Source: a virus | Strand: one strand, 5' to 3' | DNA: 20,191 nucleotides | Virus record (IMG/VR): IMGVR_UViG_3300042516_001613 | Coordinates: 1 to 20,191 of that record | Shown: piece after piece, positions 8,901-19,339 of the stretch | Position numbering within the stretch: the stretch's first letter is position 1 | Layout: each line of letters opens with the position of its first letter | Made by a program: the position numbers and the translations under genes | The notes under the pieces: model-generated | What the model saw: only the letters and a program-made list of their open reading frames with translations | Database searches by the model: none | Told to the model about the DNA's origin: nothing

Positions 8901-11900
8901 CTGGCTTTCTTCATAAACTGCACCCGCATCGTACAAGTTTCTTGTCGGCACTACAGCCCTTGGCTGCACAAGCTTAAGTGGCTCGGACTCTGGGAAGTTA
9001 TAATCGGCAGGGTCAGAGCTAATGCGCTCCATAATAAGTTGCGCAATTGCCATTTGCATGCGCATATGCGGAGGCAGCGTTACCCTTCCCCTGCCCGGGA
9101 TGTCAACTTCATCAGGCAGGGAAGCCCCGATCTCTGTAACCCTTGGGTCATCCATAAGGGTTCTGAAGTACGCCTTTAGCGCCTTTGCATTTTGCTGCAT
9201 GTACAGTACGAGTTCTTTTGTATACGGCGTAGCCTTAATGCTTGTCCTTGGACCACTCTCTAGTGGCTTCCCGTCAGGGCCAACTGAGTAAAGTCCTGAT
9301 CGGAATCGTCCCAAACCGCTGATAGTGCGAGGCTTTTCTGACTTTCCCGGGCTTCCGGCCTCACCTTCCCACGAGCGTGCCTGGGAACGATACATCATTC
9401 CAAAGTCTGTTTCTGAGCTAAGCATACCCATTGGGCCTGATCCGTATACTTCCGGCAAGCTAGCTGTGCCAAGAACTTCTGCAACAAACATGGCTACACG
9501 CGCTCGATAATCAGCAATATTGCGGGCCATGAATGGAATGTGTTCAGTATTGGCTAGGATTTCTGCAAGGATTGGCTGGGATGGGTCAACTCCGGCACGC
9601 CGGAAGATAGGCCATGACTCCTGGCCAAGCAGAACAGTCTGCTCGACCGATCCGTCAACGCCTAGTGGCGTGACTGGTGCCTGCAATGCAGCTCGACCAA
9701 TTTCTCCCTGCACTTGGCGGGCGTCTGCGCGGGCAATAATGTCAAGTTGGTCCTCTGTTCGTCGTGAAACGTCACGCGCAGGTGTGCCGGCCTCTACAAG
9801 CGCTGCATCTTCGCGCTGCATTTCAAGGCCTTCTCGCAAATCTGTACCAGAAATAGCCCCATACCCTGGCCGCGTCCTGCCGTAGTCCTTGTTGTCACCA
9901 CGATCGAACTTTCCAGTGACATCCCCTAGGTACCAACGTGCTCCGGCGTCGTCTTCGTACCCTTCTGCTGGCAGTTTCAGGCTACTTGGGGCGCCAAGGT
10001 CAGGCATTGTGCCATCCTCATGCCCAAGCACAGCTGTGGCCACGCCAGAACGCCAGTCAGGTGACGTGCTCTCTACGTCTACGTCGCGCACAAGCACAGC
10101 TGGTGCGCTTCCCCACATTCCTACAGAAAGGATTGGCCCCTCAGTAAGGGCAAAGAGTGACTTCATAGACTTCGGAGCGTTTTTCATATTGCGCATTGCT
10201 TCTGCAGTTGCGTCAGTTACCGGGTTGCCTTGCTCATCGTACATTTGTACGGGGATTTGGCGCTCCCTGTCTACGAATGGCTCTGGCACAAGGGCCAAAC
10301 TGATCTGCTCGCCCATTGGTGTGCGCAGCGGTAGGGTGTGCTTGACCGCAGGGAAGACGTATGGGTCAACGTCAATGCGTAGTCTGGGGAATGTCTTGGC
10401 CTGGACGATCCTGCTTAGGTCAATATCCTCGCCAATTCGGAACGGAGGTGTTACGGCAGCTCCGTTCTTAGCCGCAACCTCTACAAGAGGGTGGTCTGCC
10501 GGCAGAACGAGGATGCCTTCGCGGTTGCCAATGAGTCGGCCCTCGCCATTTGCGGAGCGGATTGAGTCATTTAGACCAAACTTCTCGCCGTCTAGGCGGA
10601 CAACAACGAACTCTATGGTCGGCAGCATGGCACGTCGCCGTGCCGTTTCGGCTGCGATTATCTTTTCGTCAAGTGTGTACTCGATATTGCCGCCAACGCC
10701 GATGTCTGTGTTCGTAGCATCCGACCATTGTGCGCTTGTGTCAGAGAAACCCAGGTACCCAAGCTCCTCCTTGAGAGATCCAATGATCGCTCCCTCAAGC
10801 ATGCCGTCTCGCAGGCCCCTTGTGCCGCCACCTTCGGACGCTTGCAGCTCTGCCGTTGGGTCTGTGGATAGCACAAAGCCGATTGCCGCCTTGTTCGTCT
10901 CTGGGTCTGGGTGCATTGGGTTGATGAACGACGGTACGTCTAGCCCCTGGGCGTCGACTTGCTGCCATCGCTGGTCGACGATGCCTGCTCGGTCGAGCGC
11001 AAAGCGCCGTCGGCTGGCTGTTTGATAGCGGACGATGTTGTTAACCGTCATCGGCACACCGTTTACCACGATATGTGACATGAGCGGGCGCTTGATCGTG
11101 CCCTCCTCAGTCTCAACTGTACGGATATCTTCGCCGGTTAGCTCACGTACACGGTCCAGAATCTCCTGGCTAAGGTTTTCCAGCGCCATGGACGGAACCG
11201 GTACCTTCTGACCGCGTGCCTTCTTGGGGTCAAACTGAAGGTAAGAGTTGTTTACAATATCTGAGTCAATCTCCGTAACAAGCTTTGACAGCAGCGTAAC
11301 TGCCGAAGACGACTCTGGGTGGTGCAAAGCGCCGCCGTCGCCAAGCTCGTCGATCAATCGGACGATCTCGTCCAGCATTTCGCGTTGCACGCCGTAGTTC
11401 TTTTGTTCCTGAGCTAGGAAGTATGGTCGGTGTGTGTCTGCGCCACTGGTTGCTGAGCCGTTTCGTACCTGTTCCAGCAGTTCCTGCTCAACTCCGGCAC
11501 GAGTCATAATCTCGTCAAACTCCTTGCGGAACTGGGCCAAACGTGGTGAGCCCTGCAGATCCTTCTCGACGAATCCTAGCGCATAGTGGAAGAGTGTCTG
11601 CCGCATGGCTAGACGCCCACGCCTGTGGCTTTCTGGGTCGGCCAGGTCGTCACGCGCTGCCAGGTTCTTGCCGTTCAGGCTGTTCTCGCCAAACCACTTG
11701 GCGAATAGAAGATACAGATCGTCTAGTGGGTTGAGTGATCCGTAGTTAAGGATCTCTCCGCGTACTGCTGAGATTTTTGCTAGCAGTCGCTTCCGCTCCA
11801 TCGCAGCAGCCAGAACATCCGCGCTACCGCCGACAGCCTTGCTAGCCTTAATCCTACCCTGGATTGCCGGGTCACGCAGGTCTGCCTCTACAACAAGATC

Positions 11901-12704
11901 CTGCCACTCCCTGGACCCTTGTGATTGCTCTCGAGCTTCAACCCTAGCGGCCTCATCTGGTGTCAGTTTCAGGGCTTCACGTCGCGCGGCAATCTCACCC
12001 TTCGTTTCTGGTGTGCCACCTGGTCGGGAAGCTGACAGCTCAGTCTCTGCAGCCTGCAGCATAGCCAGCTGGTCAGGGGAAAGGCCTACCCCCTCATCGA
12101 GGGTCGTCGCCGTTGTGTTGTTTTCGGGGGCATCCAGCCCTTCCATAAGAGGCCCTGGGATGCCCATTTGCGCCAAGCTGGGGCTCGTTTCCCCTGGAGG
12201 TGGTGTCTGTACTACCCCCGGCTGTGTTTCGGGCCCCTGTGCTCGCTGGGCGGCTGTTTCTGCCATGACGGCTGGTGAGGCGCTGGCCGTAGCCTTGCGG
12301 GTGATGAAGTCCATTGCGGCTTCTGCTGGGATCTGGCCGCCAGTTGAGCCTGCTACTGATTGCGCCAAGCGCAGGGCCTTGTCCTGGATGCCGACCGGGC
12401 TATCCCCAGCTACGACGGCCTGCTGGATCTTGCGGAACTCATCAACGAAGTACTTGCTACCCTTGATGATCTTGCCAATCTCTACGTCAAGGGCGTCCTG
12501 TGGCGTTGGCGCTACCGGAGCTACGGGGGGAACAGCAGTACCCCCAGCTGCCGGAGCGGAGGGGGCGGCAGCAGCTGGGGGTGTAGTTGGTTCGGCGGGT
12601 GCCTTGGGCGCAGCCTTGCCTTCGATCTGCTGGTCGACAACTTGGTTGGCGTTCTTCAGACCTTCTTCTAGCTGCTTCTGGATCTTGGTGTTCTTCTTGG
12701 CCAT
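5937..12704 (-). CDS. Giant virion-associated protein candidate (2255 residues)
   Basis: The largest gene here takes a third of the window. Residues 1-30 are charged and helical. Residues 33-70 are Ala/Pro-rich (APKAPAEPTTPPAAAAPSAP), a likely linker. Most of the remainder is mixed charged helix with no fold I recognise. Near the end, residues 2108-2127 and about 2172-2217 are Gly/Ala-rich and hydrophobic with repeated GxxxG spacing (GGFGGGAVGAVAGTAALP, AGSFTGAMAGSVAGSAIA), a glycine-zipper pattern suited to membrane insertion. Proteins of this size and composition in short-tailed phages are often internal ejection proteins. No tape-measure heptads dominate, and no T7-type or N4-type RNA polymerase motif was seen. 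Start: ATG after GGGAGAAC. It begins the leftward operon, directly downstream of tandem promoter-like elements. Confidence 0.9.
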   Translation of the reverse strand: MAKKNTKIQKQLEEGLKNANQVVDQQIEGKAAPKAPAEPTTPPAAAAPSAPAAGGTAVPPVAPVAPTPQDALDVEIGKIIKGSKYFVDEFRKIQQAVVAGDSPVGIQDKALRLAQSVAGSTGGQIPAEAAMDFITRKATASASPAVMAETAAQRAQGPETQPGVVQTPPPGETSPSLAQMGIPGPLMEGLDAPENNTTATTLDEGVGLSPDQLAMLQAAETELSASRPGGTPETKGEIAARREALKLTPDEAARVEAREQSQGSREWQDLVVEADLRDPAIQGRIKASKAVGGSADVLAAAMERKRLLAKISAVRGEILNYGSLNPLDDLYLLFAKWFGENSLNGKNLAARDDLADPESHRRGRLAMRQTLFHYALGFVEKDLQGSPRLAQFRKEFDEIMTRAGVEQELLEQVRNGSATSGADTHRPYFLAQEQKNYGVQREMLDEIVRLIDELGDGGALHHPESSSAVTLLSKLVTEIDSDIVNNSYLQFDPKKARGQKVPVPSMALENLSQEILDRVRELTGEDIRTVETEEGTIKRPLMSHIVVNGVPMTVNNIVRYQTASRRRFALDRAGIVDQRWQQVDAQGLDVPSFINPMHPDPETNKAAIGFVLSTDPTAELQASEGGGTRGLRDGMLEGAIIGSLKEELGYLGFSDTSAQWSDATNTDIGVGGNIEYTLDEKIIAAETARRRAMLPTIEFVVVRLDGEKFGLNDSIRSANGEGRLIGNREGILVLPADHPLVEVAAKNGAAVTPPFRIGEDIDLSRIVQAKTFPRLRIDVDPYVFPAVKHTLPLRTPMGEQISLALVPEPFVDRERQIPVQMYDEQGNPVTDATAEAMRNMKNAPKSMKSLFALTEGPILSVGMWGSAPAVLVRDVDVESTSPDWRSGVATAVLGHEDGTMPDLGAPSSLKLPAEGYEDDAGARWYLGDVTGKFDRGDNKDYGRTRPGYGAISGTDLREGLEMQREDAALVEAGTPARDVSRRTEDQLDIIARADARQVQGEIGRAALQAPVTPLGVDGSVEQTVLLGQESWPIFRRAGVDPSQPILAEILANTEHIPFMARNIADYRARVAMFVAEVLGTASLPEVYGSGPMGMLSSETDFGMMYRSQARSWEGEAGSPGKSEKPRTISGLGRFRSGLYSVGPDGKPLESGPRTSIKATPYTKELVLYMQQNAKALKAYFRTLMDDPRVTEIGASLPDEVDIPGRGRVTLPPHMRMQMAIAQLIMERISSDPADYNFPESEPLKLVQPRAVVPTRNLYDAGAVYEESQHPYEVSTRTIREKKDALTASDDEDIIMREASQDPSPTKIEWTPLDPTRRAKVRRLVGHLLFMLSVRGTKANWDARNARGQKRDVKDIVDLSSELAAVYDELGRTQVVTTAQDAWLEKIRDRMPQMTDLEWRLLSRKLGTIVRTTYDMGRPISSTPGLSTSSRAAGAAGMQFIDWDQLGFYDEADITPIDRAAYIIAQDMASADYLARTGRRDVAIDSVRETDDGLTTKPIEVYDQIASLGGDFEAILQLLETNPDAIGREVTEVRSPDGSTGTLIEGISKEARALVDELRTAKDPRFRAILISLIENKGNYRAIADSAYPDDFAKAILQEDKGKPEAARIFKPRDGKYNIVRGGDPNTGQVDPYDEEMQRLWAEYVTEQENNVMKKVAKTFGKKYKGSVVDLPVTTGSAPTPTSTPGTTFSTEEWRRLAWKAYRYYSTHTALDQAGDGWVKFINNIIYADQLKQKIADDFAASGGKMIHVPNALFAAQTGEIPELKTTDGSNMGLLTDNYIDMLKETEYGQEMIEFAKSQQMKFVLIRKPIPGSPGLFNYEVYVAKVTLDKKTGKLLEFDTLEQMTFEYGYQPLAEETNFEQTQDRVRNVLAQHGAGDVFEIIPTTDNTGRYMMSIRPEALMAFGISQKEANRVIEAMSKMRKYDSATIKFVTRMLDTYMRYGFFTRINEMAIAQGVEPPFPNLDLREMAKETVEISDKFDGLDADGRTAGAFSIRKALNNGNPNLGALAHIKSPSEVIFEGKDAKYADSDIDNFLARNAELLGETPIRGVDPMLDAALDAGSIRDGKVVEALTTSRPGAPLGSERRTETETMKQLYRRYASKMRSVRTAHAIGGVGAGMAVTAGMGLMQGNLSEDDIKTAAAFEVLGAINPVASSAAALGFTAMNKGDMLRTLINIIGGFGGGAVGAVAGTAALPVAGSFTGAMAGSVAGSAIADSLYSAVSGNQMNNMVPNNVATANEQAEPDDKDPFSIYRNGG

Positions 12705-12718
12705 GTTCTCCCACCCTC

Positions 12719-12754
12719 TTAGAGGGTATAGACTATCTATTTATAACCTGTAAA
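12719..12754 (-). promoter_or_regulatory. Proximal leftward promoter-like element
   Basis: Read leftward: TTTACA, 18 bases, TATACC, an acceptable sigma-70 arrangement, with TTATAAATAGATAG between. It ends about 15 bases before the giant gene's start codon. The second half, CTATACCCTCTAA, is repeated exactly in the distal element, making the pair tandem direct repeats about 42 bases apart. ATAGA...TCTAT forms a short inverted repeat in both. Confidence 0.5.
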
Positions 12755-12760
12755 ACCGTA

Positions 12761-12805
12761 TTAGAGGGTATAGAACTACTCTCTATTTATATCCAACCCT
12801 GTCAA
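12761..12805 (-). promoter_or_regulatory. Distal leftward promoter-like element
   Basis: Read leftward: TTGACA, four bases, TGGATATAAATAGAGAG, then TTCTATACCCTCTAA. It resembles the element in front of the fibre gene closely in its first half and the proximal element in its second half. Together they probably drive the structural operon. The polymerase used is unknown; no phage RNA polymerase gene is in the window. Confidence 0.5.
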
Positions 12806-13037
12806 GCGTTTAGCAACATTAAGATTGCTTATCAAAGGGGTATGTCCAGTGGGGTGGTAGGGTAATCCCCCAATAGACCTCACGGTCAAAAAAAGCCGTA
12901 GGGAGACCCCCTCTACGAAATCTCTTCGGGAAAAGGGTGGTCCCTATCCCGTAATAAGCACCCTCAATCCTCGGACACCCGAGGGGGGGTGACTACCGCT
13001 GGGCTGCTACCCGGCGTAAGGAAGGAGGTGATTCTAT
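12806..13037 (+). promoter_or_regulatory. Rightward leader / control region without genes
   Basis: No gene is seen here. The rightward transcript would fold repeatedly. At 12849-12883, GTGGGGT pairs with ACCTCAC around an inner GGG-TAAT-CCC. At 12897-12917 there is a CGTAG/CTACG stem. At 12928-12950 GGG...AGGG-TGGT-CCCT..CCC is followed by GTAATAA, the first member of the hairpin family. At 12969-12984 CCTCGG-ACAC-CCGAGG forms a clean hairpin. A full AAGGAGGTGAT ribosome site follows before 13038. I could not identify a convincing rightward -35/-10 pair. Confidence 0.55.
12888..12917 (-). terminator. Leftward intrinsic terminator in the divergent control region
   Basis: On the minus strand, CGTAG-A-GG and its complement CC-CTACG form a stem of about 7 base pairs with a bulged A. 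The stem is followed at once by GC and seven T. It would stop leftward (antisense) transcription coming from the right arm before it reaches the leftward promoters. On the plus strand the same bases fold but lack a U run. Confidence 0.5.
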
Positions 13038-13343
13038 ATGGCGAAGACGTTCAAGCTCACAGCCTGGGGCGAGGAGTACGAACTCGTAGTCCGCACCGCT
13101 ACGTACCAGAACAACGGCAACACTGCCGTGGTTCTGGAGACGGTAGACGGTGAGGGCTTCGCGTACCTCAGCGCAAACCTGGATGTGGTTCTACCGGCTG
13201 GTCACTTCATGCTGAAGGACTATTCGGAGAACGAAGAGCTTGTTGCCGACCCTGTGATCCAGGGCCTGTACACCCCATGCGAGGTGCACGGCCCTGAATC
13301 GTCAGGCTACGTGACACTCTCGTGCCACATCCTCAAGGCCTAG
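13038..13343 (+). CDS. DUF4313-like small protein
   Basis: A 101-residue protein of beta-rich character: MAKTFKLTAWGEEYELVVRTATYQNNG, then AVVLETVDGEGFAYLSANLDVVLPAGHFMLKDY and a closing GYVTLSCHIL strand. The order 'basic start, YELxLRxxxYxNNGxxAVxL, FxxLSxNL, then FMLKDYSENEEL' resembles the DUF4313 family found on mobile elements and phages of Firmicutes and Actinobacteria; the call is from memory and moderate. Function unknown. The start has an extended AAGGAGGTGAT ribosome site. It is the first gene of the rightward arm, so probably among the earliest expressed. Confidence 0.85.
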   Translation: MAKTFKLTAWGEEYELVVRTATYQNNGNTAVVLETVDGEGFAYLSANLDVVLPAGHFMLKDYSENEELVADPVIQGLYTPCEVHGPESSGYVTLSCHILKA

Positions 13344-13356
13344 CAGGGCCATAGCT

Positions 13357-13381
13357 CGGGTGAGGGGTGCTCCCTCACCCG
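13357..13381 (+). promoter_or_regulatory. Intergenic hairpin (family member)
   Basis: A 10-base-pair perfect stem, CGGGTGAGGG with CCCTCACCCG, loop GTGCT, followed by TAACAATCGAAAGGAGGTG. It lies between the stop at 13343 and the ribosome site of the next gene. There is no U run, so a plain intrinsic terminator is unlikely; mRNA processing or stabilisation, or translation control, fits better. Confidence 0.75.
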
Positions 13382-13406
13382 TAACAATCGAAAGGAGGTG
13401 AAATAG

Positions 13407-13667
13407 ATGCCACACTTTATGTGCACCGTGTGCAACAGGCGCAGGCCTAAAGACCGAACTGTCGGGCAAGAGCACGAAGAGCTCGGTTGGATCTGCCTGG
13501 ACTGCTTGCACCACTACACGTTCGAGGCGTTGCGAATGATCGCAGGCCTCCACACGTGCAGCAGCTGCAGCATTAAGGGTACCAGCATGGATGGTGACCG
13601 TTACGGTCAGCAGAATGATTGGTATTGCGATGTCTGCACGTACGAAACACCGGAGATTAAGGGTTAA
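13407..13667 (+). CDS. Double zinc-ribbon microprotein (86 residues)
   Basis: Four CxxC pairs are evenly placed: C6/C9, C30/C33, C51/C54 and C74/C77. They make two complete four-Cys zinc sites joined by a short helix (HHYTFEALRMIAGL). Such ribbons bind nucleic acid or proteins. No catalytic motif is visible. The start ATG follows AAAGGAGGTGAAATAG. The stop codon lies inside the next intergenic hairpin, so the 3' end of this message is structured. It is the richest member of a set of Cys-paired small proteins in this arm. Confidence 0.85.
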   Translation: MPHFMCTVCNRRRPKDRTVGQEHEELGWICLDCLHHYTFEALRMIAGLHTCSSCSIKGTSMDGDRYGQQNDWYCDVCTYETPEIKG

Positions 13668-13684
13668 GGGAAGTTCCCTCAACC
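13662..13684 (+). promoter_or_regulatory. Intergenic hairpin overlapping a stop codon
   Basis: GGTTAAGGG pairs with CCCTCAACC around the loop AAGTT, with one A-C mismatch; the tail is GTAGAAAGGGGGTG. The TAA of the zinc-ribbon gene is in the left arm of the stem. Same AGGG-loop-CCCT core as its neighbours. Confidence 0.65.
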
Positions 13685-13702
13685 GTAGAAAGGGGGTGAT
13701 AA

Positions 13703-13780
13703 ATGGTGAAGGACCTGATTGGCTGGATAATATTTCTGGCCTGCTGGTATGTAGCCCTAGTCATAGGGCTACAAATCTGA
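13703..13780 (+). CDS. 25-residue single-span membrane microprotein
   Basis: The frame reads MVKDLIGWIIFLACWYVALVIGLQI, given here as two parts because of length: MVKDLIGWIIFLA and CWYVALVIGLQI. Apart from Lys3 and Asp4 it is almost wholly hydrophobic, enough for one membrane span with a short cytoplasmic N-terminus. An AGGGGGTGAT ribosome site is correctly spaced from the ATG, and hairpins of the family lie on both sides, as for the neighbouring genes. Phage microproteins of this kind can modulate membrane enzymes or exclude other phages; no specific function can be assigned. Confidence 0.65.
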   Translation: MVKDLIGWIIFLACWYVALVIGLQI

Positions 13781-13823
13781 GGAGAGGGGCGTTCCCTCTC
13801 CCGTAATAATCGCCCTCGTGGCG
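13781..13823 (+). promoter_or_regulatory. Two-hairpin intergenic element
   Basis: The first hairpin is GGAGAGGG/CCCTCTCC with loop GCGTT, then CGTAATAATC. The second hairpin is CGCC-CTCGT-GGCG. The GAAAGGAG ribosome site follows directly. The stem sequence differs from that at 13357 in paired positions (TGAG/CTCA versus AGAG/CTCT), which is compensatory change. Confidence 0.75.
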
Positions 13824-13836
13824 AAAGGAGTTTGGT

Positions 13837-14172
13837 ATGGCAGTAGCCTACCTCATTAGGGCACTTGTCCAGGGTGACATGTCCCACGATGGTGCCCGTC
13901 AGGCACCGAAGGGCTTCAACGGCTCTTGGGATCTTCGTTATGATTCCAAGACCGGTGCGCCAATGCGTCTCTTCACGGTTGAAGAGCGCGCAGTTGACGC
14001 CGAAGGCAAGACCAAGGTGACCGGTTATTACAACTGCGTTGCCAAGGGCGAGCTTAAGGAGGCCATTGAAGCCGCGCAATGGACTGAGGTCGAGCTCGTT
14101 GCTGACCTCAGGTTCAACCGCGACACCAAGTATCTCCAGCTTGAGGTGGTGAAAGTCTCACCAGTCAAGTAA
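13837..14172 (+). CDS. Paralogue A: putative OB-fold-like protein
   Basis: A 111-residue protein sharing about 70% identity (counted by eye) with the product at 14495-14833. Conserved blocks are QAPKGFNGSWD, KVTGYYNCVA, EAIEAAQW and FNRDTKYLQLEVVKV. The predicted order is strand-strand-strand, helix (LKEAIEAAQW), two strands (EVELVADLRF, YLQLEVVKV), similar to OB-fold nucleic-acid-binding proteins. A single-stranded DNA-binding role is an attractive but untested idea. Codons here are GC-ending (GCC, AAG, CGC), unlike its paralogue. The start ATG is 8 bases after AAAGGAG. A GNRA-capped hairpin follows its stop. Confidence 0.88.
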   Translation: MAVAYLIRALVQGDMSHDGARQAPKGFNGSWDLRYDSKTGAPMRLFTVEERAVDAEGKTKVTGYYNCVAKGELKEAIEAAQWTEVELVADLRFNRDTKYLQLEVVKVSPVK

Positions 14173-14182
14173 TACCAAGGGG

Positions 14183-14218
14183 CTAGCGGGGGATAGGGGT
14201 AACCCTATCTCCCGTTAG
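14183..14218 (+). promoter_or_regulatory. Long GUAA-capped hairpin
   Basis: CTAGCGGGGGATAGGG pairs with CCCTATCTCCCGTTAG: 16 pairs including two G-U wobbles, closed by the tetraloop GTAA (GNRA class). Wobble pairs and a GNRA loop point to function as RNA. It is 10 bases after the stop of paralogue A. No U run follows. Confidence 0.8.
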
Positions 14219-14408
14219 TTCCGTATGGGGTACCTGCCTTCCCTGGCCCGTAACAATCCGGGGAAGCTTGCTCAACCTGGCGAAGCTTTATCATTAAGCT
14301 TTCTTAACCTGACGCATGCGCTGCATACGATAGCAAGCATACTCAGTTAAGCATTGTCAAGTGATAAGCTAGCACAGGGGTAGGCTGGCGCGGTTGCGTG
14401 TTACCCTT
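14219..14408 (+). other. Gene-free interval with AAGCTT triplet and possible control sites
   Basis: No convincing gene. It contains CCCGTAACAATC (tail of the hairpin family, 14247-14258), AACCTGGCGA (14274-14283), three AAGCTT hexamers at 14264, 14283 and 14296, and TTGTCAAGTGATAAGC at 14354-14369. The last resembles the TGTCAAG found at the leftward promoter-like elements and may be a promoter or binding site. A 41-codon frame from 14225 has no ribosome site. Confidence 0.4.
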
Positions 14409-14480
14409 CGGGTGAGGGTGGATCCCTCGCCCGTAATAAATCCTGCCTAATGGCAGGCTAGTTTAGTCCCGCTATGCGGG
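14409..14480 (+). promoter_or_regulatory. Three-hairpin intergenic element
   Basis: The first hairpin is CGGGTGAGGG/CCCTCGCCCG with one wobble and loop TGGAT, then TAATAAAT. The second is CCTGCC-TAAT-GGCAGG (14442-14457). The third is CCCGC-TAT-GCGGG (14468-14480). The GGAAGGAGAT ribosome site of paralogue B follows. The core of the second hairpin recurs exactly at 15819-15832. Confidence 0.75.
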
Positions 14481-14494
14481 GGAAGGAGATGCAA

Positions 14495-14833
14495 ATGCCA
14501 ACAGCATTTGTAAAGCGTGCTCTCATTCAGGGAGCAATGGATCATGAAGGTGCTAAGCAAGCACCCAAAGGCTTCAACGGAAGCTGGGATATCCGATACA
14601 ACTCCAAGACTGGAGACAAGTTGAGGATCTTCACGATCGAAGAGCGCACCTCAGATGAGGCAGGCAAGCTCAAGGTTACAGGTTATTATAACTGCGTAGC
14701 CTCAGGCGAGATCATGGAAGCAATCGAAGCAGCTCAGTGGAGTGAGGTCAGCCTCATCACCGAGATCAAGTTCAATCGAGATACCAAGTACCTCCAGCTA
14801 GAGGTAGTAAAGGTTCTCCCAGTAGAGGCATAA
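14495..14833 (+). CDS. Paralogue B: putative OB-fold-like protein
   Basis: The protein has 112 residues from the ATG at 14495, which is 7 bases after GGAAGGAG; an in-frame ATG at 14474 would place the ribosome site inside the gene and is rejected. It aligns end to end with paralogue A without gaps in the core: QAPKGFNGSWDIRYNSKTG, FTIEER, KVTGYYNCVASGE, EAIEAAQWSEV, FNRDTKYLQLEVVKV. Codons end more often in A or T (GCA, GAA, CTC mixed) than in paralogue A, matching the genes to its right. The two may act as alternative or joint subunits of the same nucleic-acid-binding protein. Function unproven. Confidence 0.88.
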   Translation: MPTAFVKRALIQGAMDHEGAKQAPKGFNGSWDIRYNSKTGDKLRIFTIEERTSDEAGKLKVTGYYNCVASGEIMEAIEAAQWSEVSLITEIKFNRDTKYLQLEVVKVLPVEA

Positions 14834-14860
14834 GGTTCAGTTTAGAACCCGCAATCAACC

Positions 14861-14900
14861 GGATAAGTGGCATCCCGCGCAAGCGGGGTGCCATTTATCC
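14861..14900 (+). promoter_or_regulatory. 18-base-pair GCAA-capped hairpin
   Basis: GGATAAGTGGCATCCCGC pairs with GCGGGGTGCCATTTATCC over all 18 positions, two as G-U wobbles, with a GCAA (GNRA) tetraloop. It lies between the stop at 14833 and the next start at 14950, and is preceded by a small GGTTC/GAACC hairpin. No U run follows. It is the longest perfect fold in the window. Confidence 0.85.
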
Positions 14901-14949
14901 TCAATGCCCAGGCTTGATAAACCTGGCGAAGATGATAAGGAGATGACAA

Positions 14950-15132
14950 GTGCCTAGGTGTCCATGGTGTGATCATATCAGTGAGCTAAAGTACCAAGGC
15001 TTCTGCTCAAAGGAATGCTTAGACGATGCAGGCCATGAGTATGAGAAGTACCTAGACAAGTTCAATGATTACATGGCAGGTTATCCAGTAACATTCGAGA
15101 AGATCAGGCGTAAGAAGAAGGAGGAGCAATGA
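14950..15132 (+). CDS. 60-residue zinc-ribbon-like microprotein
   Basis: The protein starts with GTG, 7 bases after AAGGAG, and begins MPRCPWCDH. Cysteines at 4, 7, 19 and 23 (CPWC ... CSKEC) form a compact zinc site, followed by a charged helix (HEYEKYLDKFNDYM) and a basic C-terminus (IRRKKKEEQ). The stop TGA overlaps the ATG of the next gene, so the two are probably co-translated. The CxxC-x11-CxxxC layout resembles small treble-clef or FCS-type fingers, which bind nucleic acid or protein. No specific family is recognised. Confidence 0.8.
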   Translation: MPRCPWCDHISELKYQGFCSKECLDDAGHEYEKYLDKFNDYMAGYPVTFEKIRRKKKEEQ

Positions 15133-15356
15133 TTTGCCAAGCCATGAATGGCAAGCGGCTATGTACCTATGATGGTATCCGTACTGTCAAGGGTGGCAAG
15201 CTACTATGTCTGGTACATATCGACTCATTCTTTAAGGGTGAACAGATCAAGTGGGCGCCAAAGCGCCTGCTCTCATGGGAAGTTGAGCGCCGCGCATCGG
15301 CAGCAGCCGAACGCTACCGTATCAACAAGCTAAATGAGGAGGTATACCGTGCCTAA
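15129..15356 (+). CDS. 75-residue basic protein with possible C3H site
   Basis: The frame begins MICQAMNGKRLCTYDG. C3, C12, C27 and H30 (CLVH) could hold one zinc ion. The second half is a basic helix (WEVERRASAAAERYRINKLNEEVYRA). The ATG shares ATGA with the stop of the previous gene, with GGAGG four bases upstream. Its own last codons contain the ribosome site (GAGGAGG) and GTG start of the next gene. It forms the middle of a four-gene overlapping block (14950-15647). Function unknown. Confidence 0.8.
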   Translation: MICQAMNGKRLCTYDGIRTVKGGKLLCLVHIDSFFKGEQIKWAPKRLLSWEVERRASAAAERYRINKLNEEVYRA

Positions 15357-15537
15357 TGAACCATATGTAACAATCGGTTGTATAAACTGCAGCAAGCTAA
15401 GGGTATATAAAGATTCATTCGGAAACTGGATTAGAATAGTAGACTTGCCTAAGTTCTGCGATGATTGCGGAGAGGCATACCTCGCAAGCTATATAGAATA
15501 TGTAGTCCCAACATCAGAGAAAGGAGGTAATGAATAA
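15349..15537 (+). CDS. 62-residue four-Cys zinc-ribbon microprotein
   Basis: The start is GTG at 15349, five bases after GAGGAGGT; an in-frame ATG 15 bases upstream overlaps that ribosome site and is rejected. The sequence has C11/C14 (CINC) and C37/C40 (CDDC), separated by a beta-like stretch (VYKDSFGNWIRIVDLP), a classic zinc-ribbon spacing. The C-terminus is acidic/polar. It overlaps the previous gene by 8 bases and the next by one base (TAATG). Possibly an adaptor or nucleic-acid-binding protein; no family recognised. Confidence 0.8.
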   Translation: MPNEPYVTIGCINCSKLRVYKDSFGNWIRIVDLPKFCDDCGEAYLASYIEYVVPTSEKGGNE

Positions 15538-15647
15538 TGGATTTAGCAGCATTTCTATGGACAGTAATCGCTTCCATCATTGGAACAGTAGTAGGCATTG
15601 TCATTCTTAGTGTCGCAGACAAAGCTTATGGTATCTTCAAGAACTAG
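15537..15647 (+). CDS. 36-residue single-span membrane microprotein
   Basis: The peptide starts MDLAAFLWTVIASIIG and continues TVVGIVILSVADKAYGIFKN. Residues 3-26 form one hydrophobic span, with DKAYGIFKN as a short, positively charged tail, suggesting the C-terminus stays in the cytoplasm. Its ATG overlaps the preceding stop (TAATG), with AAGGAGGT nine bases upstream, so it is clearly part of the operon. It is the second membrane microprotein of this arm after 13703-13780. The function is unknown; a small holin-like or membrane-protein-modulating role is possible. Confidence 0.75.
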   Translation: MDLAAFLWTVIASIIGTVVGIVILSVADKAYGIFKN

Positions 15648-15655
15648 TCATCAAC

Positions 15656-15779
15656 GAGTCGGGTAGCAGACCGACTCACCCAGGTAGGGATGGGGTAGCC
15701 AGCGGCAGGCTACCCCAATCCCTCTCAATAAGAGAAGCGTGATAAACCTGGCGAAAGCGCAAGCGTTGGCGTGTGCTTT
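15656..15779 (+). ncRNA. Structured interval: candidate noncoding RNA or 5' leader
   Basis: Several stems occur in a row. GAGTCGG/CCGACTC lies at 15656-15677 (8-base loop). AGGGAT-GGGGTAGCC pairs with GGCTACCCC-AATCCCT at 15686-15723 (15 pairs, one bulged A, loop AGCGGCA). CTCT-CAATA-AGAG lies at 15722-15734, and AAAGCGCA/TGTGCTTT with one wobble at 15754-15779. There is no open frame. The repeat GATAAACCTGGCGAA (15741-15755) separates the halves. Whether it is a separate RNA, a terminator complex or a regulatory leader for 15845 is not known. Confidence 0.5.
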
Positions 15780-15786
15780 TGCTTGT

Positions 15787-15832
15787 GGCGGGGGGTGTTC
15801 CCTCGCCCGTATTAGAAGCTGCCTAATGGCAG
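15787..15832 (+). promoter_or_regulatory. Two-hairpin intergenic element
   Basis: GGC-G-GGGGG pairs with CCCTCGCC (bulged G, one wobble, loop TGTT), then CGTATTAGAAG, then CTGCC-TAAT-GGCAG (15819-15832), then the AAGGAGG ribosome site of the gene at 15845. The layout matches 14409-14457. Confidence 0.7.
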
Positions 15833-15844
15833 AAGGAGGAAGCT

Positions 15845-16246
15845 ATGGAAGACAGGGTCAAGGTAGACCTACAGTTTGGGTTCCAGCGTGAACAAGCAGA
15901 AGAAGCATTAGCTATCCTAATCTCAGGATACTATATGCTTGAGTCATTCCAGAAAGCAAAGCATCGTTTCCGAAGCAACTATCCTGAGGTGTTCACATCA
16001 TCCGAAGAGATGATGATTGCTGATGGCCTGACACAGACAGAAGCAGAGAGCAATACTATTCAGGCATTAGAACAGTACTTTGATTTGCTTGGCAAGATGG
16101 TATACATGCTGGGTTATGAGCTAGCTCAAGAGCTAGGCGCTCCATTCCCAGAGGAAGAGACCATCGTTGCACATCGTCAGGTATCAGACCTAGATCAAGA
16201 GGAGGTGATGAATGAACTAAATCGTATCATGAATACCAATAACTAA
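15845..16246 (+). CDS. Unknown helical phage protein, 133 residues
   Basis: The start ATG is 7 bases after AGAAGGAGG. The protein looks almost all helical and acidic: REQAEEALAILISGYYML, FQKAKHRFRSNYPEVF, an acidic middle (SSEEMMIADGLTQTEAES), QALEQYFDLLGKMVYMLGYELAQELG, then a C-terminal helix (LDQEEVMNELNRIMN). It contains no Cys. It opens the tightly packed second half of the rightward arm, where intergenic hairpins largely stop. No family recognised and no catalytic motif seen. Confidence 0.82.
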   Translation: MEDRVKVDLQFGFQREQAEEALAILISGYYMLESFQKAKHRFRSNYPEVFTSSEEMMIADGLTQTEAESNTIQALEQYFDLLGKMVYMLGYELAQELGAPFPEEETIVAHRQVSDLDQEEVMNELNRIMNTNN

Positions 16247-16255
16247 GGAGGTACA

Positions 16256-16513
16256 ATGGTTGACAGTAACGAAGTGGAGTTGACAGTACCACCACAGGAT
16301 CCTGATGTATCTTGTGATGGTGTCAATCACCACGTAAAGGTAGAGTTTGTAACCTACTACACCTTACCGGATAATGTCTGGCGCAAGTGGGCCAATGGCA
16401 CTGCCGATCAGGTGAAGGAAGAGGTTGCTAAACTAAAAGCAACAGCAGACAATGACACATCAGTGTTCATTGATTACTGCTGCGAAGCATGCAAGGAGGA
16501 AGGTAATGGCTGA
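16256..16513 (+). CDS. Unknown acidic protein with C-terminal Cys cluster, 85 residues
   Basis: The start ATG follows TAAGGAGGTACA. The protein has an acidic N-terminus, C20 and H25/H26, a beta-like VKVEFVTYYTLPDNVW, a helix (DQVKEEVAKLKATA), then CCEAC (C75, C76, C79) near the C-terminus. C20/His plus the CxxC pair could form a zinc site bringing the ends together. The last 8 bases overlap the next gene, whose ribosome site (AAGGAGGAAGG) lies in this gene's final codons. Function unknown. Confidence 0.8.
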   Translation: MVDSNEVELTVPPQDPDVSCDGVNHHVKVEFVTYYTLPDNVWRKWANGTADQVKEEVAKLKATADNDTSVFIDYCCEACKEEGNG

Positions 16514-16943
16514 CATTGGAGATTTCAAGGAGCAACTAGAGTCTGTCCAGTCTAGCATTGAATCAGCTGGGTACAGTGCAGACCAAGCAGCAGATGAAGC
16601 GAAGGCTGCTTATCAGAACATTGATGCTGCACTAGCAGTCATTGGTGATCTTGTTGACAGTGTTGATAGCATCATCGGCTACAGCAAGCATGACCTAGAG
16701 GTAGCAATGCGCCACCTCAGTGTCATCGGCAGGCTGCAGGCCATGTATCTTAACCGGCTCGACAATGTGGTTGAGAACAATCACATTCCAGACAAGGTTA
16801 AGTTCGCTAACTTCATTGCATTCCTGGAGGCTATCACCAGCTGGGAAGGTAGCCAAATGGTATGGGATAAAGAGTATAAGATCGAGTCTTACTATGAGAA
16901 CTCGACTTATGGATATAAGACTGCAAAGTCAGAGGAGGTCTAA
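16506..16943 (+). CDS. Unknown coiled-coil-like protein, 145 residues
   Basis: The start is the ATG at 16506, 4 bases after GGAGGAAGG, and not an upstream in-frame ATG inside the previous gene. Residues 1-60 have a heptad-like pattern (FKEQLESVQSSIESAGYSADQAADEAKAAYQNI, split by acidic residues), suggesting an oligomerising coil. A helical middle (HDLEVAMRHLSVIGRLQAMYLNRL) and a Tyr-rich tail (YKIESYYENSTYGYKT) follow. It overlaps the previous gene by 8 bases and is one base from the next start. No family recognised. Confidence 0.82.
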   Translation: MADIGDFKEQLESVQSSIESAGYSADQAADEAKAAYQNIDAALAVIGDLVDSVDSIIGYSKHDLEVAMRHLSVIGRLQAMYLNRLDNVVENNHIPDKVKFANFIAFLEAITSWEGSQMVWDKEYKIESYYENSTYGYKTAKSEEV

Positions 16944-16944
16944 C

Positions 16945-17394
16945 ATGGCAACCAAGAATACTGAAAAGTGTGGAGCACCTAAGCTTAAGGAACTACAGGC
17001 TGAGTTCAATCAGCAGGTAAGCGTACAAGTAGATAGCGCAAGCATCGTTGCTTTGATCATGAAGGCTTCATTGCCTGAGCTGGCCAAGCAAGTAGCCAAG
17101 GGCAATAGCTACCATAACTCTGTCAATGGTGCTATCAAGGCGTTGAATACAGCAACCGCTCTTGACCTTAAGGTTACAGAGATTAACGATGCATGGGATG
17201 GGTATCACGGATTCAACACTGTCCTAAGCGATGCTGGCATGCTTCGTCAGTGGCGAGCGCAGCGTCCAGGCTGTGACTTCACTGAGAATGTAGACACAGC
17301 TGATCTGTACGATAGTACAGTAGCCGAGGTTCACATCACCTTCAGCAAGAAGCTGAAGGACAAGAAGTTCTTGGCATCAAAGGGTGTCAAGTAA
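16945..17394 (+). CDS. Unknown phage protein, 149 residues
   Basis: The start is the ATG at 16945, after GAGGAGGTCTAAC, one base after the previous stop; earlier in-frame starts lie within the neighbouring gene. The N-terminus is basic (MATKNTEKCGAPKLKELQ), followed by helices (SIVALIMKASLPELAKQVAKG, NGAIKALNTATALDLKV), an aromatic segment (INDAWDGYHGFNTVL), and a C-terminal strand and basic tail (AEVHITFSKKLKDKKFL). No known motif. It is followed by a stable hairpin before the next gene. Confidence 0.82.
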   Translation: MATKNTEKCGAPKLKELQAEFNQQVSVQVDSASIVALIMKASLPELAKQVAKGNSYHNSVNGAIKALNTATALDLKVTEINDAWDGYHGFNTVLSDAGMLRQWRAQRPGCDFTENVDTADLYDSTVAEVHITFSKKLKDKKFLASKGVK

Positions 17395-17411
17395 TAGCTA
17401 AGTAGGGTGCA

Positions 17412-17450
17412 GCCGGATGGGTTAGAGGTGTGGTTCACCACCCATCCGGC
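17412..17450 (+). promoter_or_regulatory. Nested intergenic hairpin
   Basis: GCCGGATGGGT pairs perfectly with ACCCATCCGGC (11 pairs). Inside it, GGTG-TGGTT-CACC forms a second stem after four unpaired bases. It lies between the stop at 17394 and the GAAGGAG ribosome site of the gene at 17473. No U run follows. It is the only strong intergenic hairpin in the second half of the arm and its sequence differs from the AGGG/CCCT family. Confidence 0.8.
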
Positions 17451-17472
17451 ACACGCTACGGAAGGAGTAGTT

Positions 17473-17805
17473 ATGTGTGAGAAGTATAATGGCTGGACTA
17501 ACTGGGAAACATGGAACGCAGCGTTATGGATTGGTGAAGTAGATGGAATGGGAGATGAGATCTTTGCTCAGGCTCTCAAAGAAATCGAAGCCAACACAGA
17601 CGATGACACTGTAGATATCCCAACAGCTAAGTACGCTCTATCCAAATGGCTCGAAGAGTTCTCGACGGAGATGTTCTTTGGACACATTGACAGAGACGAA
17701 CTGCACGGGCCAGCAGCAGATGCCATCTATGTAGGTTACATTCCATCTGTCGATTGGTATTCAATCGCAGAACATTATATCAAAGATGCACAGGAGGGAC
17801 TATGA
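17473..17805 (+). CDS. NGWTNWETW family protein (DUF7249-like)
   Basis: The protein has 110 residues from the ATG at 17473, 6 bases after GAAGGAG. The N-terminus KYNGWTNWETWNAALWI is the hallmark of a small family found in phages, plasmids and haloarchaea, which I recall as DUF7249; the name is from memory. The rest is acidic and helical (FAQALKEIEANTDDDTV, AKYALSKWLEEFSTEMF), ending with a short helical segment that carries DWYSIAEHYI, a motif that often ends family members. Function unknown. It overlaps the next gene by four bases (ATGA). Confidence 0.88.
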   Translation: MCEKYNGWTNWETWNAALWIGEVDGMGDEIFAQALKEIEANTDDDTVDIPTAKYALSKWLEEFSTEMFFGHIDRDELHGPAADAIYVGYIPSVDWYSIAEHYIKDAQEGL

Positions 17806-18413
17806 ATACAGCTATTGAAGGTGGCAAGACAGAGTCAGGTATCCAGTGGGAAACCCATATGGATTATGACTATGACACAACAGATATGCGTAGCGATTTC
17901 TACATCATCGGCACTCGTGGTACCGGCAGGCACATCAAGGTAGATGAGTACTGCGATAGTATGGATGAGTTCGATGCTGCTCTCAAGGCAGAGAGCATCG
18001 TGTACTACCAGCCGCTGTTCATGCTGGCACACAGTGGTGTCAGCGTCAGCCTTGGTGGATACAATGACCCATGGGATAGCGGCCAGTGTGGATTCGCATG
18101 CATCACTCGCAAGATCGCAGACGAATGGGGTCTACTGCCACATCAGTACGAGGGATTCCTTCGTGATGCGGTAGAGAACTTCGACGCCTACCTCAGAGGT
18201 GAGGTGTTCCGATTCGACATCTATACAGAGAACAAGTGCAAGGAGTGCGGATGCACTAGCACTGAGACACTGGATGGATGCGGAGGGTATGTGTACCCAG
18301 GTGGATATGCTAAGTTCTTTGAGGAAGTAGTAGAACCAGCCATTGCTGAATGCGAGCGACAGCTAGCTGAAGCTGAGCACCAAGCAGAGAAAGGAGTCAG
18401 GTCAGATGATTAG
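17802..18413 (+). CDS. Conserved phage hypothetical protein with HSG...PWDSGQ motif, 203 residues
   Basis: Residues around 73-100 read PLFMLAHSGVSVSLGGYNDPWDSGQCGF. The block 'LxLxxHSGxxxS...PWDSGQxGF' is typical of a widespread family of unknown function in phages and mobile elements (recalled, not searched). A CKECGCTSTETLDGCGGY cluster follows, which may bind zinc, then a charged C-terminal helix (AIAECERQLAEAEHQAE). The start ATG follows GGAGGGACT and shares ATGA with the previous gene; in-frame starts further upstream lie inside that gene. The C-terminal codons overlap the next gene by 8 bases. Confidence 0.87.
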   Translation: MNTAIEGGKTESGIQWETHMDYDYDTTDMRSDFYIIGTRGTGRHIKVDEYCDSMDEFDAALKAESIVYYQPLFMLAHSGVSVSLGGYNDPWDSGQCGFACITRKIADEWGLLPHQYEGFLRDAVENFDAYLRGEVFRFDIYTENKCKECGCTSTETLDGCGGYVYPGGYAKFFEEVVEPAIAECERQLAEAEHQAEKGVRSDD

Positions 18414-18540
18414 TCTTAGAACTATTGGCATTGTTAAGTGTGTCGAATGCAACAAGGTATTCGACCTTGATGTAGAAGAGCAAGCAGCAGAGTGGTACTA
18501 TGGCCACGATTGCTTTATAGAGGAGGAAGATAATGACTAG
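18406..18540 (+). CDS. 44-residue zinc-ribbon-like microprotein
   Basis: The frame begins MISLRTIGIVKCVECNKVF and has C12/C15 (CVEC) and H34/C36 (GHDC), a small zinc-ribbon-type arrangement, then an acidic tail (FIEEEDND). AAGGAGTC lies 8 bases before the ATG. It overlaps both neighbours by 8 bases, the same overlap length at each end, which argues for a real operon member. Function unknown. Confidence 0.75.
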   Translation: MISLRTIGIVKCVECNKVFDLDVEEQAAEWYYGHDCFIEEEDND

Positions 18541-18682
18541 CCGAATCTGTTGGGAATGTGACCAGGCGCTAGCAGAGTATGACGAAGGCCACATCGTTGT
18601 TGACTTCTCTGAATCAGCAGAAGACTGGAAGATCTATTGTGAGGATTGTTGGCAGAGAATGCTGAAAGATAAGGAGGGATGA
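18533..18682 (+). CDS. 49-residue four-Cys microprotein
   Basis: The peptide begins MTSRICWECDQALAEY, with C6/C9 (CWEC) and C36/C39 (CEDC) separated by a beta-like acidic stretch (GHIVVDFSESAEDWKIY), then a short helix (WQRMLKDKEG). The spacing suits a zinc ribbon or a thioredoxin-unrelated redox pair; zinc binding is more likely. The ATG lies 7 bases after GAGGAGGAAG. Adjacent to another Cys microprotein (18406-18540), it may act together with it. Confidence 0.75.
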   Translation: MTSRICWECDQALAEYDEGHIVVDFSESAEDWKIYCEDCWQRMLKDKEG

Positions 18683-18683
18683 G

Positions 18684-18962
18684 ATGGTAAACTTTGATGC
18701 AATGAGAGAGCTAGAGAACCAGACGCAGCTGAAGCATCTCGAAGCAGAGGCAGCGTACATCATGAAGGAAATGATTGACCCTATCCTTGGTTGCACAGTT
18801 GTCAGCGGGTTGGTAGACAGCTCAGACATGGACGGCATGCCCATGTTTGCTAACCCATTCCCAACCATCACATTCCGCAGGCCGGATGGCACGCTGATTG
18901 TGATGATGGTATCAGCGGACGACGAGTGCAACGAAGGCGGACGCCTTATCCAGATAGCATAG
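18684..18962 (+). CDS. Unknown small phage protein, 92 residues
   Basis: The ATG lies one base after the previous stop, with AAGGAGGGATG upstream. The protein is an N-terminal helix (MRELENQTQLKHLEAEAAYIMKEMI) followed by a beta-rich half (GCTVVSGLVDSSDMDGMPMF, TITFRRPDGTLIVMMVSAD) ending GGRLIQIA. RRPDGTLIVMMVSAD resembles a strand-turn-strand ligand- or protein-binding hairpin. No family is recognised. AGGAGG follows the stop for the next gene. Confidence 0.8.
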   Translation: MVNFDAMRELENQTQLKHLEAEAAYIMKEMIDPILGCTVVSGLVDSSDMDGMPMFANPFPTITFRRPDGTLIVMMVSADDECNEGGRLIQIA

Positions 18963-18970
18963 GAGGAACT

Positions 18971-19339
18971 ATGAAGATACTAGACATAGAGCTAAGCGAC
19001 AAAGAGGTAGTCAGCATCTACACTACAGCACTCGAAGGTGGCATTGGATACTGGGCCATCGCAGACGAGTACAAGTGGCAGTACTTGTACGAGGACTGGG
19101 AGAATGACATCGTTCATCCTCTCGAACCAGACCAAGTACTAGTGGTTCTATCCGATACAGAAGACGATGACTTCAAAGATGAGCAGCTAACACCGGCTAA
19201 GATCAGAGCTGGTGTCAAGCTACTCATCGAGAAGTATCCACACATGTATCAAATCCTCGACGATCAGTTCCATGTGGATGCAGATGGAGCTGATGCAGTA
19301 GTACAGCTTGGACTATTCGGTGAGATAGTCTACGGCTAA
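18971..19339 (+). CDS. Conserved phage protein of the LFGEIVYG type, 122 residues
   Basis: The start is the ATG at 18971 after AGGAGGAACT; the longer in-frame alternative begins inside the previous gene. The sequence shows TTALEGGIGYWA early, an acidic middle (SDTEDDDFKDEQLTPAKIRAGVKLLIEKYP), and a C-terminus DADGADAVVQLGLFGEIVYG. These two blocks, ALEGGIxYW and DADxADAxxQLALFGEIVYG, recur in hypothetical proteins of many phages, including actinobacteriophages (from memory). Function is not known. It is the last gene of the rightward arm, and the U-tailed terminator begins 8 bases after its stop. Confidence 0.88.
   Translation: MKILDIELSDKEVVSIYTTALEGGIGYWAIADEYKWQYLYEDWENDIVHPLEPDQVLVVLSDTEDDDFKDEQLTPAKIRAGVKLLIEKYPHMYQILDDQFHVDADGADAVVQLGLFGEIVYG

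Follow-up and report, generated by a model that had tools for sequence, protein, structure and literature searches.

A covarying hairpin repeated upstream of small early genes in a phage genome fragment: a candidate mRNA control element

Organization of the locus

This report concerns a family of short hairpins that recurs between small early genes of IMG/VR virus record IMGVR_UViG_3300042516_001613, a linear 20,191-base sequence that was analysed in its entirety (the window) and represents a 20-kb fragment, part of the full genome. Late-type genes for a terminase, a collar/collagen-like fibre protein and a 2255-amino-acid protein occupy the minus strand, and small genes occupy the plus strand from 13038 to 19339, followed by a DnaB helicase fragment on the minus strand. 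Searches by DNA and by four proteins identified no isolated relative among 50,697 deposited phage records, and a terminase search of genome_contigs yielded no relative. In IMG/VR the terminase has many relatives, and the same element family was found in four further genomes (G008/L136, G039/L137, L090 and L181) at about seven sites each. The genomes of the window's clade are all incomplete. Six sites on the plus strand of the window share a common hairpin:

12928-12957, plus strand, element 1 (hairpin 12928-12950): GGGAAAAGGG-TGGT-CCCTATCCC, tail GTAATAA; 34.7 bits; at the head of the early plus-strand region; internal mismatch, weakest stem
13357-13387, plus strand, element 2 (hairpin 13357-13381): CGGGTGAGGG-GTGCT-CCCTCACCCG, tail GTAACAA; 42.2 bits; -20.2 kcal/mol, z -4.4; before gene 13407-13667
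13662-13691, plus strand, element 3 (hairpin 13662-13684): GGTTAAGGG-AAGTT-CCCTCAACC, tail GTAGAAA adjoining the Shine-Dalgarno sequence; 40 bits; TAA stop of the upstream gene inside the 5' arm
13781-13809, plus strand, element 4 (hairpin 13781-13802): GGAGAGGG-GCGTT-CCCTCTCCC, tail GTAATAA; 41.9 bits; before the SSB-like gene 13837-14172
14410-14439, plus strand, element 5 (hairpin 14410-14432): GGGTGAGGG-TGGAT-CCCTCGCCC, tail GTAATAA; 38.1 bits; before the second SSB-like gene (14474/14495-14833)
15787-15815, plus strand, element 6 (hairpin 15787-15808): GGCGGGGG-GTGTT-CCCTCGCCC, tail GTATTAG; 39.3 bits; before gene 15845-16246

Anatomy and placement of the elements

The stem is about 8 base pairs (bp) long (8-10 bp). 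Its inner three pairs are nearly constant G-C, the fourth pair is A-T or G.T (A-T at 15 sites, G.T at 9), and the next two pairs outward are variable. The loop has four to five bases, usually five, with a nearly constant central G, and the 3' arm (CCCT) continues straight into the tail GTA[A/G/T]NA[A/G]. The distance from loop to tail is fixed. A search with the pattern [AG]GGG-N3-6-CCCT-N1-4-CGTA gives 10 overlapping matches on the plus strand, which correspond to the six sites because runs of G are counted repeatedly, and 0 on the minus strand, compared with 0.03 matches per strand expected by chance under a first-order Markov model of the window. The folding energies of the six sites range from -9.7 to -20.2 kcal/mol (z -1.9 to -4.8), the weakest stems being those at 12928, with its internal mismatch, and 13662, with an A.C mismatch.

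Each element stands just 5' of a gene's leader and its separate Shine-Dalgarno sequence, with 16-87 bases between the end of the element and the start codon. Between small genes, the element takes up the greater part of the gap, with the upstream stop codon near or within the 5' arm (for instance TGAGGG in G008 and GGTTAAGGG at 13662) and the Shine-Dalgarno sequence a few bases past the tail. Where an element heads a gene block, one to three additional hairpins, variable in sequence, separate its tail from the Shine-Dalgarno sequence; these longer leaders fold far better than shuffled sequences (mean z -4.1). Three such secondary hairpins are present in the window:

13811-13823, plus strand: CGCCCTCGTGGCG, between element 4 and the Shine-Dalgarno sequence
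14442-14457, plus strand: CCTGCCTAATGGCAGG, between element 5 and its gene
15819-15832, plus strand: CTGCCTAATGGCAG, adjoining the Shine-Dalgarno sequence of gene 15845

The first-pass annotation of the window had listed seven sites, six of them with a CCGTAAYAA-like tail, most leading into a ribosome site, and none with a U run. The six tails and their position upstream of a leader and Shine-Dalgarno sequence were confirmed, as was the lack of a U run at every site, and six of the seven sites belong to one family; the remaining one, at 14183, proved to be a different, 20-bp hairpin. That some members begin inside the upstream stop codon, and that longer leaders carry hairpins beside the Shine-Dalgarno sequence, are additions to that account.

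Covariation of the stem and strand preference

Covariation was assessed on 25 sites from five related genomes, the window's included, two of them close; the sites are related as paralogues inside a genome and as orthologues from one genome to another, and the cells of the alignment are therefore not independent events. Stem cells were paired in 94% of cases. Sixteen cells carried changes on both sides of a pair, versus 4.5 +/- 1.7 in shuffled alignments (0/500), and the covariation score was 0.303 versus 0.116 shuffled (0/500), falling to 0.044 or less when the partner was slid by 1-3 bases. Five and six standard pair types are seen at the two middle variable pairs. Further pair types numbered 11 versus 6.4 +/- 1.2 shuffled (0/500), a result that kinship alone would be hard-pressed to explain. 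A covariance model built without L181 matched five sites in that genome with E values from 4e-10 to 2e-4, including pair types not previously seen; L181 was first found through a DNA pattern for one element site, and its other four sites are independent of that pattern.

The stem has thus changed in step on both sides, indicating that the hairpin fold is maintained by selection. Compensatory change had been proposed from the window's copies, and the case becomes stronger with the relatives included. The check suggested at that time, a covariance model searched against related genomes, recovered the held-out sites, and neither outcome named as contrary was encountered, since relatives retain the pairing and the copies do not represent recent, nearly identical duplications. 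The element is probably a shared switch or processing mark for small early genes.

A G.T pair holds in RNA or in the sense strand of DNA, whereas the opposite strand is left with A.C. In the window's clade, G.T outnumbers A.C by 16 to 8, and 17 sites are more stable as the sense strand versus 7 as the antisense strand (P = 0.052). In a second clade, 6/7 B/C stems are more stable as the sense strand. The bias is suggestive of action at the transcript level and is still compatible with the DNA level.

Genes behind the elements

Two of the elements precede paralogous genes for predicted OB-fold proteins:

13837-14172, plus strand: SSB/PriB-like OB-fold gene behind element 4; predicted local distance difference test score (pLDDT) of 89 for a model of the paralogue; best PDB match Mycobacterium tuberculosis SSB, E 8.9e-5
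14474-14833, plus strand: paralogous SSB/PriB-like OB-fold gene behind element 5; assigned from a predicted structure and PDB match

Gene content between the elements varies among the five genomes. The zinc-ribbon-like gene at 13407 is present in 3/5, the first gene is different in most, and a small membrane-type gene lies upstream of the SSB-like gene in 4/5. This variation gives the elements a cassette-like character. The elements had also been suggested to be recombination boundaries, an idea with limited support: gene content does differ among close relatives, but the same is expected if small genes come and go. On the minus strand of L181, at 11290-11350, ATG-TAA (or, alternatively, a 22-codon TTG frame) lies between an element with its Shine-Dalgarno sequence and the next element, possibly an emptied cassette.

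Counterpart elements in other clades

The covariance model gave no significant match in distant clades, where the elements differ in sequence. These relatives carry their own repeated early-region element in three to four copies per genome: CTGCCCCCCGAAG in G005 and G025, CTGGTCTGCCCCCCGTAG in G012 and L172, and GGTTCTCCCAAAG in G009. Members of a clade share one homogeneous motif, and from clade to clade it switches as a set, from CCCTNNCCCGTA in the window's clade to CTGCCCCCCG[A/T]AG and GGTTCTCCCAAAG. The distant elements precede orthologous genes of the SSB-like, 14950 and 15845 types, the last being the gene behind element 6. The element that precedes the SSB-like gene is built in the same way (a stem of 8 bp, a loop of about five bases, a C-rich 3' arm and CG[T/A]A), and changes in the 5' arm mostly keep sense-strand pairing, with the exception of GGGGTCAG, which has one mismatch.

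At the site upstream of the 15845-type gene (G005, G025, G012 and L162), a GCTGG within or close to the loop could form a helix with a CCAGC immediately preceding the Shine-Dalgarno sequence; in G025 both partners are altered, to GCGGG/CCCGC, suggesting a pseudoknot or alternative helix.

Interpretation and alternative explanations

Three mechanisms fit these observations: an RNA operator of translation or stability, a bare processing or protective hairpin, and a hairpin promoter of the kind used by phage N4. We favor the first, to which we assign a probability of about one half. The six elements would be copies of one cis-acting early-mRNA hairpin motif that acts most likely post-transcriptionally, like the operators of T4 genes 43 and 32. 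A trans-acting factor would bind the hairpin together with the GTARNAA-like single-stranded tail at each cistron, and the bound factor would set that cistron's translation, or its processing and stability, by which means many small early genes could be placed under one control. An RNA operator fits the placement, the covariation, the conserved loop and tail, the sense-strand bias and the clade-to-clade change of the motif. A role at the RNA level, in translation control, processing or protection, had been among those proposed in the first-pass annotation, and it now appears to be the best-supported reading of the sequences.

Several points weigh against the operator. The strand test is suggestive only, and much of the anatomy would equally be expected of a hairpin promoter. 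Clade G012 conserves the 3' half almost perfectly, yet some of its sites have a weak 5' arm or none, which argues that a linear recognition sequence matters there; together with the pairing-keeping changes of the 5' arm in distant clades, this points to a joint structural and sequence constraint whose balance is clade-dependent. Lastly, the distance from element to start codon seemed more constant after folding (41 +/- 25 bases raw, 23.5 +/- 5 folded), but shuffled leaders give the same result, and this constancy is therefore not used as evidence.

T4 gp32, an SSB, represses its own mRNA (PMC3014915), which makes the SSB-like OB-fold proteins behind elements 4 and 5 the natural first candidates for the binding factor; the assignment is a speculative guess. 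A broader and doubtful extension is a phage-wide RNA hairpin regulon, in which one phage-encoded RNA-binding factor, possibly one of these OB-fold proteins, would read the hairpin and tail before every early cassette, factor and motif would have changed together between clades, and new small genes would come under control by landing behind an element. To our knowledge, no function has been established since 2011 for multi-copy start-associated phage repeats, and the ones described lacked support for RNA pairing. The present family covaries clearly, recurs several times per genome and exists as a natural series of versions, each specific to a clade, which makes structure, recognition and motif exchange directly testable; it may show how phages subject a shifting repertoire of small early genes to common control.

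Intercistronic hairpins that act with no dedicated regulator, cutting or protecting a polycistronic early RNA so that each small gene obtains its own mRNA end and leader, would account for the location exactly between cistrons, the further stable hairpins in the leaders and the lack of a T-run, and processing between early genes is used by T7 and T4 (for T4, PMC3014915). For RNase III, however, stems of 8-10 bp would be short, and the conserved inner bases, loop G and tail are more than a plain protective hairpin needs; the clade-specific motif likewise implies specific recognition. We regard this account as rather unlikely. Hairpin promoters of the N4 type are a serious rival, albeit an unlikely one. 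An extruded DNA hairpin would direct a phage or virion RNA polymerase to start about 11-12 bases past the loop centre, near the tail G, providing each gene with its own short-leader mRNA; a dedicated polymerase would be required. The promoters of the N4 virion RNA polymerase likewise place a short GC-rich hairpin at a set spacing from a conserved sequence resembling a start, and their stem bases are conserved on the inner side and variable, though paired, on the outer side (PMC4496689); the fixed loop-to-tail distance, the single orientation, the position of elements at the heads of gene blocks and before single genes, and the clade specificity of the motif are all in keeping with such promoters. 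The dimensions differ, with stems of 8-10 bp here versus 5-7 bp and loops mostly of five bases versus three, and the N4 hairpin forms on the template strand, whereas here the sense strand tends to pair better. Failure to recognize an RNA polymerase in this phage group weakens the promoter hypothesis further: none was found by Pfam, PHROGs and PDB profile searches in three giant proteins and the other tested proteins, which is weak evidence, since no positive control accompanied the family search, the window covers a fragment and distant polymerases might escape detection. The family of the 2255-amino-acid protein is also almost without invariant residues. A motif search for a virion RNA polymerase in the giant proteins and one AlphaFold piece were likewise blank, the model being poor (pLDDT 59.8) and its PDB matches meaningless.

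Antitermination of the lambdoid nut type would have boxA-like CTCTT/TGCTCTCTT before the hairpin of head elements read by host Nus factors and a phage factor. Sequences of this kind, read by eye, lie directly 5' of head elements at 12920-12929 and 14403-14412 (CTCTTCGG / CCCTTCGG) and in relatives (TGCTCTCTT / CGCTCTTA), and CTCTTCGGG, TGCTCTTGG, TGCTCTCTTCG or CGCTCTTA is found just 5' of several head elements in different clades. The small hairpin and five-base loop are also nut-like. The boxA-like bases occur at some head elements only; the cassette elements between packed genes lack them, since these elements come immediately after coding sequence or a stop codon. Finding six nut sites within 3 kb would be unusual, and a conserved 3' tail is not part of a lambdoid nut site. 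This explanation is quite improbable. Palindromic DNA operators for a dimeric protein, as proposed for the extended start-associated sequences (ESAS) of cluster K mycobacteriophages or known for stoperators, are very improbable: inverted repeats that are short and recur in early phage regions often prove to be DNA sites, and the ESAS consensus is clade-specific (PMC3203893), as is the motif here, but compensatory change of the two arms is not expected of a DNA operator, and the fourth pair, in alternating between A-T and G.T, retains RNA pairing and breaks palindromy.

Neighboring features

Several other features flank the elements:

12705-12870, no strand assigned: AT-rich divergent region upstream of element 1, conserved in both motif clades
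14179-14222, plus strand: 20-bp perfect hairpin, not a member of the family; -38.7 kcal/mol, z -7.7; CCCGTTAG within its stem
14241-14256, plus strand: orphan 3' half CCCTGGCCCGTAACAA without the AGGG arm; matching block in G008, G039 and L181

The conserved divergent region lies upstream of all elements, which is compatible with one transcript, and it is a plausible candidate for a promoter/operator region from which all of them would be transcribed. Within it, at 12715-12790, the palindrome ACCCTCTAAGAGGGTAT (which reads ACCCTCTTAGAGGGTAT in the window) and a second copy of AGAGGGTAT are kept across both motif clades and are operator-like. Other long hairpins occupy the position of the 14179-14222 hairpin in relatives, with the same CCCTGGCCCGT block. 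That hairpin is part of about 300 noncoding bases (14173-14470) with blocks conserved in G008, G039, L090 and L181, namely the long hairpin, the CCCTGGCCCGT block, and motifs that are GGGGAAGCTTGCT-like or GTGATAAG; this stretch may be a structured RNA or control region in its own right. Another repeat, AACCTGGCGA (which reads AACTTGGCGA in relatives), has four noncoding copies, at 14275, 14920, 15745 and 19410, and is found in the relatives too. The 2255-amino-acid giant protein (5937-12704) shows about 20% identity among relatives, has a glycine/alanine-rich C-terminus and matches no known family. In three relatives, the long open reading frame of the giant protein contains a strong tRNA-Arg(TCT) gene in the same sense (L139:11140-11215, L149:9827-9902 and L151:2742-2817).

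Comparison with known systems

The elements are not intrinsic terminators: the T run is replaced by the tail GTA[A/G/T]NA[A/G], and 0/6 were listed as terminator-like on the plus strand. Searches of Rfam gave two matches in the window, both far below the gathering score, and in the relatives a tRNA only. The tail also resembles part of 16S rRNA, a lead that was dropped because the similarity is missing from the tails of other clades.

As noted in the first-pass annotation, the layout resembles that of the start-associated sequences (SAS) and ESAS of cluster K, and the distinction drawn there holds. SAS are 13-bp linear GGGATAGGAGCCC sequences that include AGGAG, and ESAS are 17-bp repeats; like the present elements, both occur in multiple copies per genome, in the non-structural region, in a single orientation and just 5' of gene starts (PMC3203893). 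A SAS is recognized as GGGATAGGAGCCC with at most two mismatches and forms the ribosome site by the start codon, whereas the elements described here lie 16-87 bases away, 5' of a separate Shine-Dalgarno sequence, and have another sequence. ESAS are imperfect inverted repeats of about 17 bp next to SAS, and Pope et al. (2011) reported that their departures do not support RNA pairing (PMC3203893), whereas the present stems covary. The ESAS of Adephagia hold SigA-like promoters (PMC11373665); no sigma70-like promoter was found at the element sites.

The operators of T4 offer a probable functional parallel. The gene 43 operator is a hairpin or pseudoknot, as is that of gene 32, located 5' of the start (by about 40 bases for gene 43), in which the top of the stem and the loop are conserved, the lower part differs between phages and the adjoining sequence reaches the ribosome site (PMC3014915). 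The elements similarly consist of a leader hairpin with adjoining sequence reaching the ribosome site, in some leaders with a second hairpin in between, and two of them precede SSB-like genes. Whereas the T4 operators are single autoregulatory sites, the hairpins described here are present in at least six copies that serve different genes.

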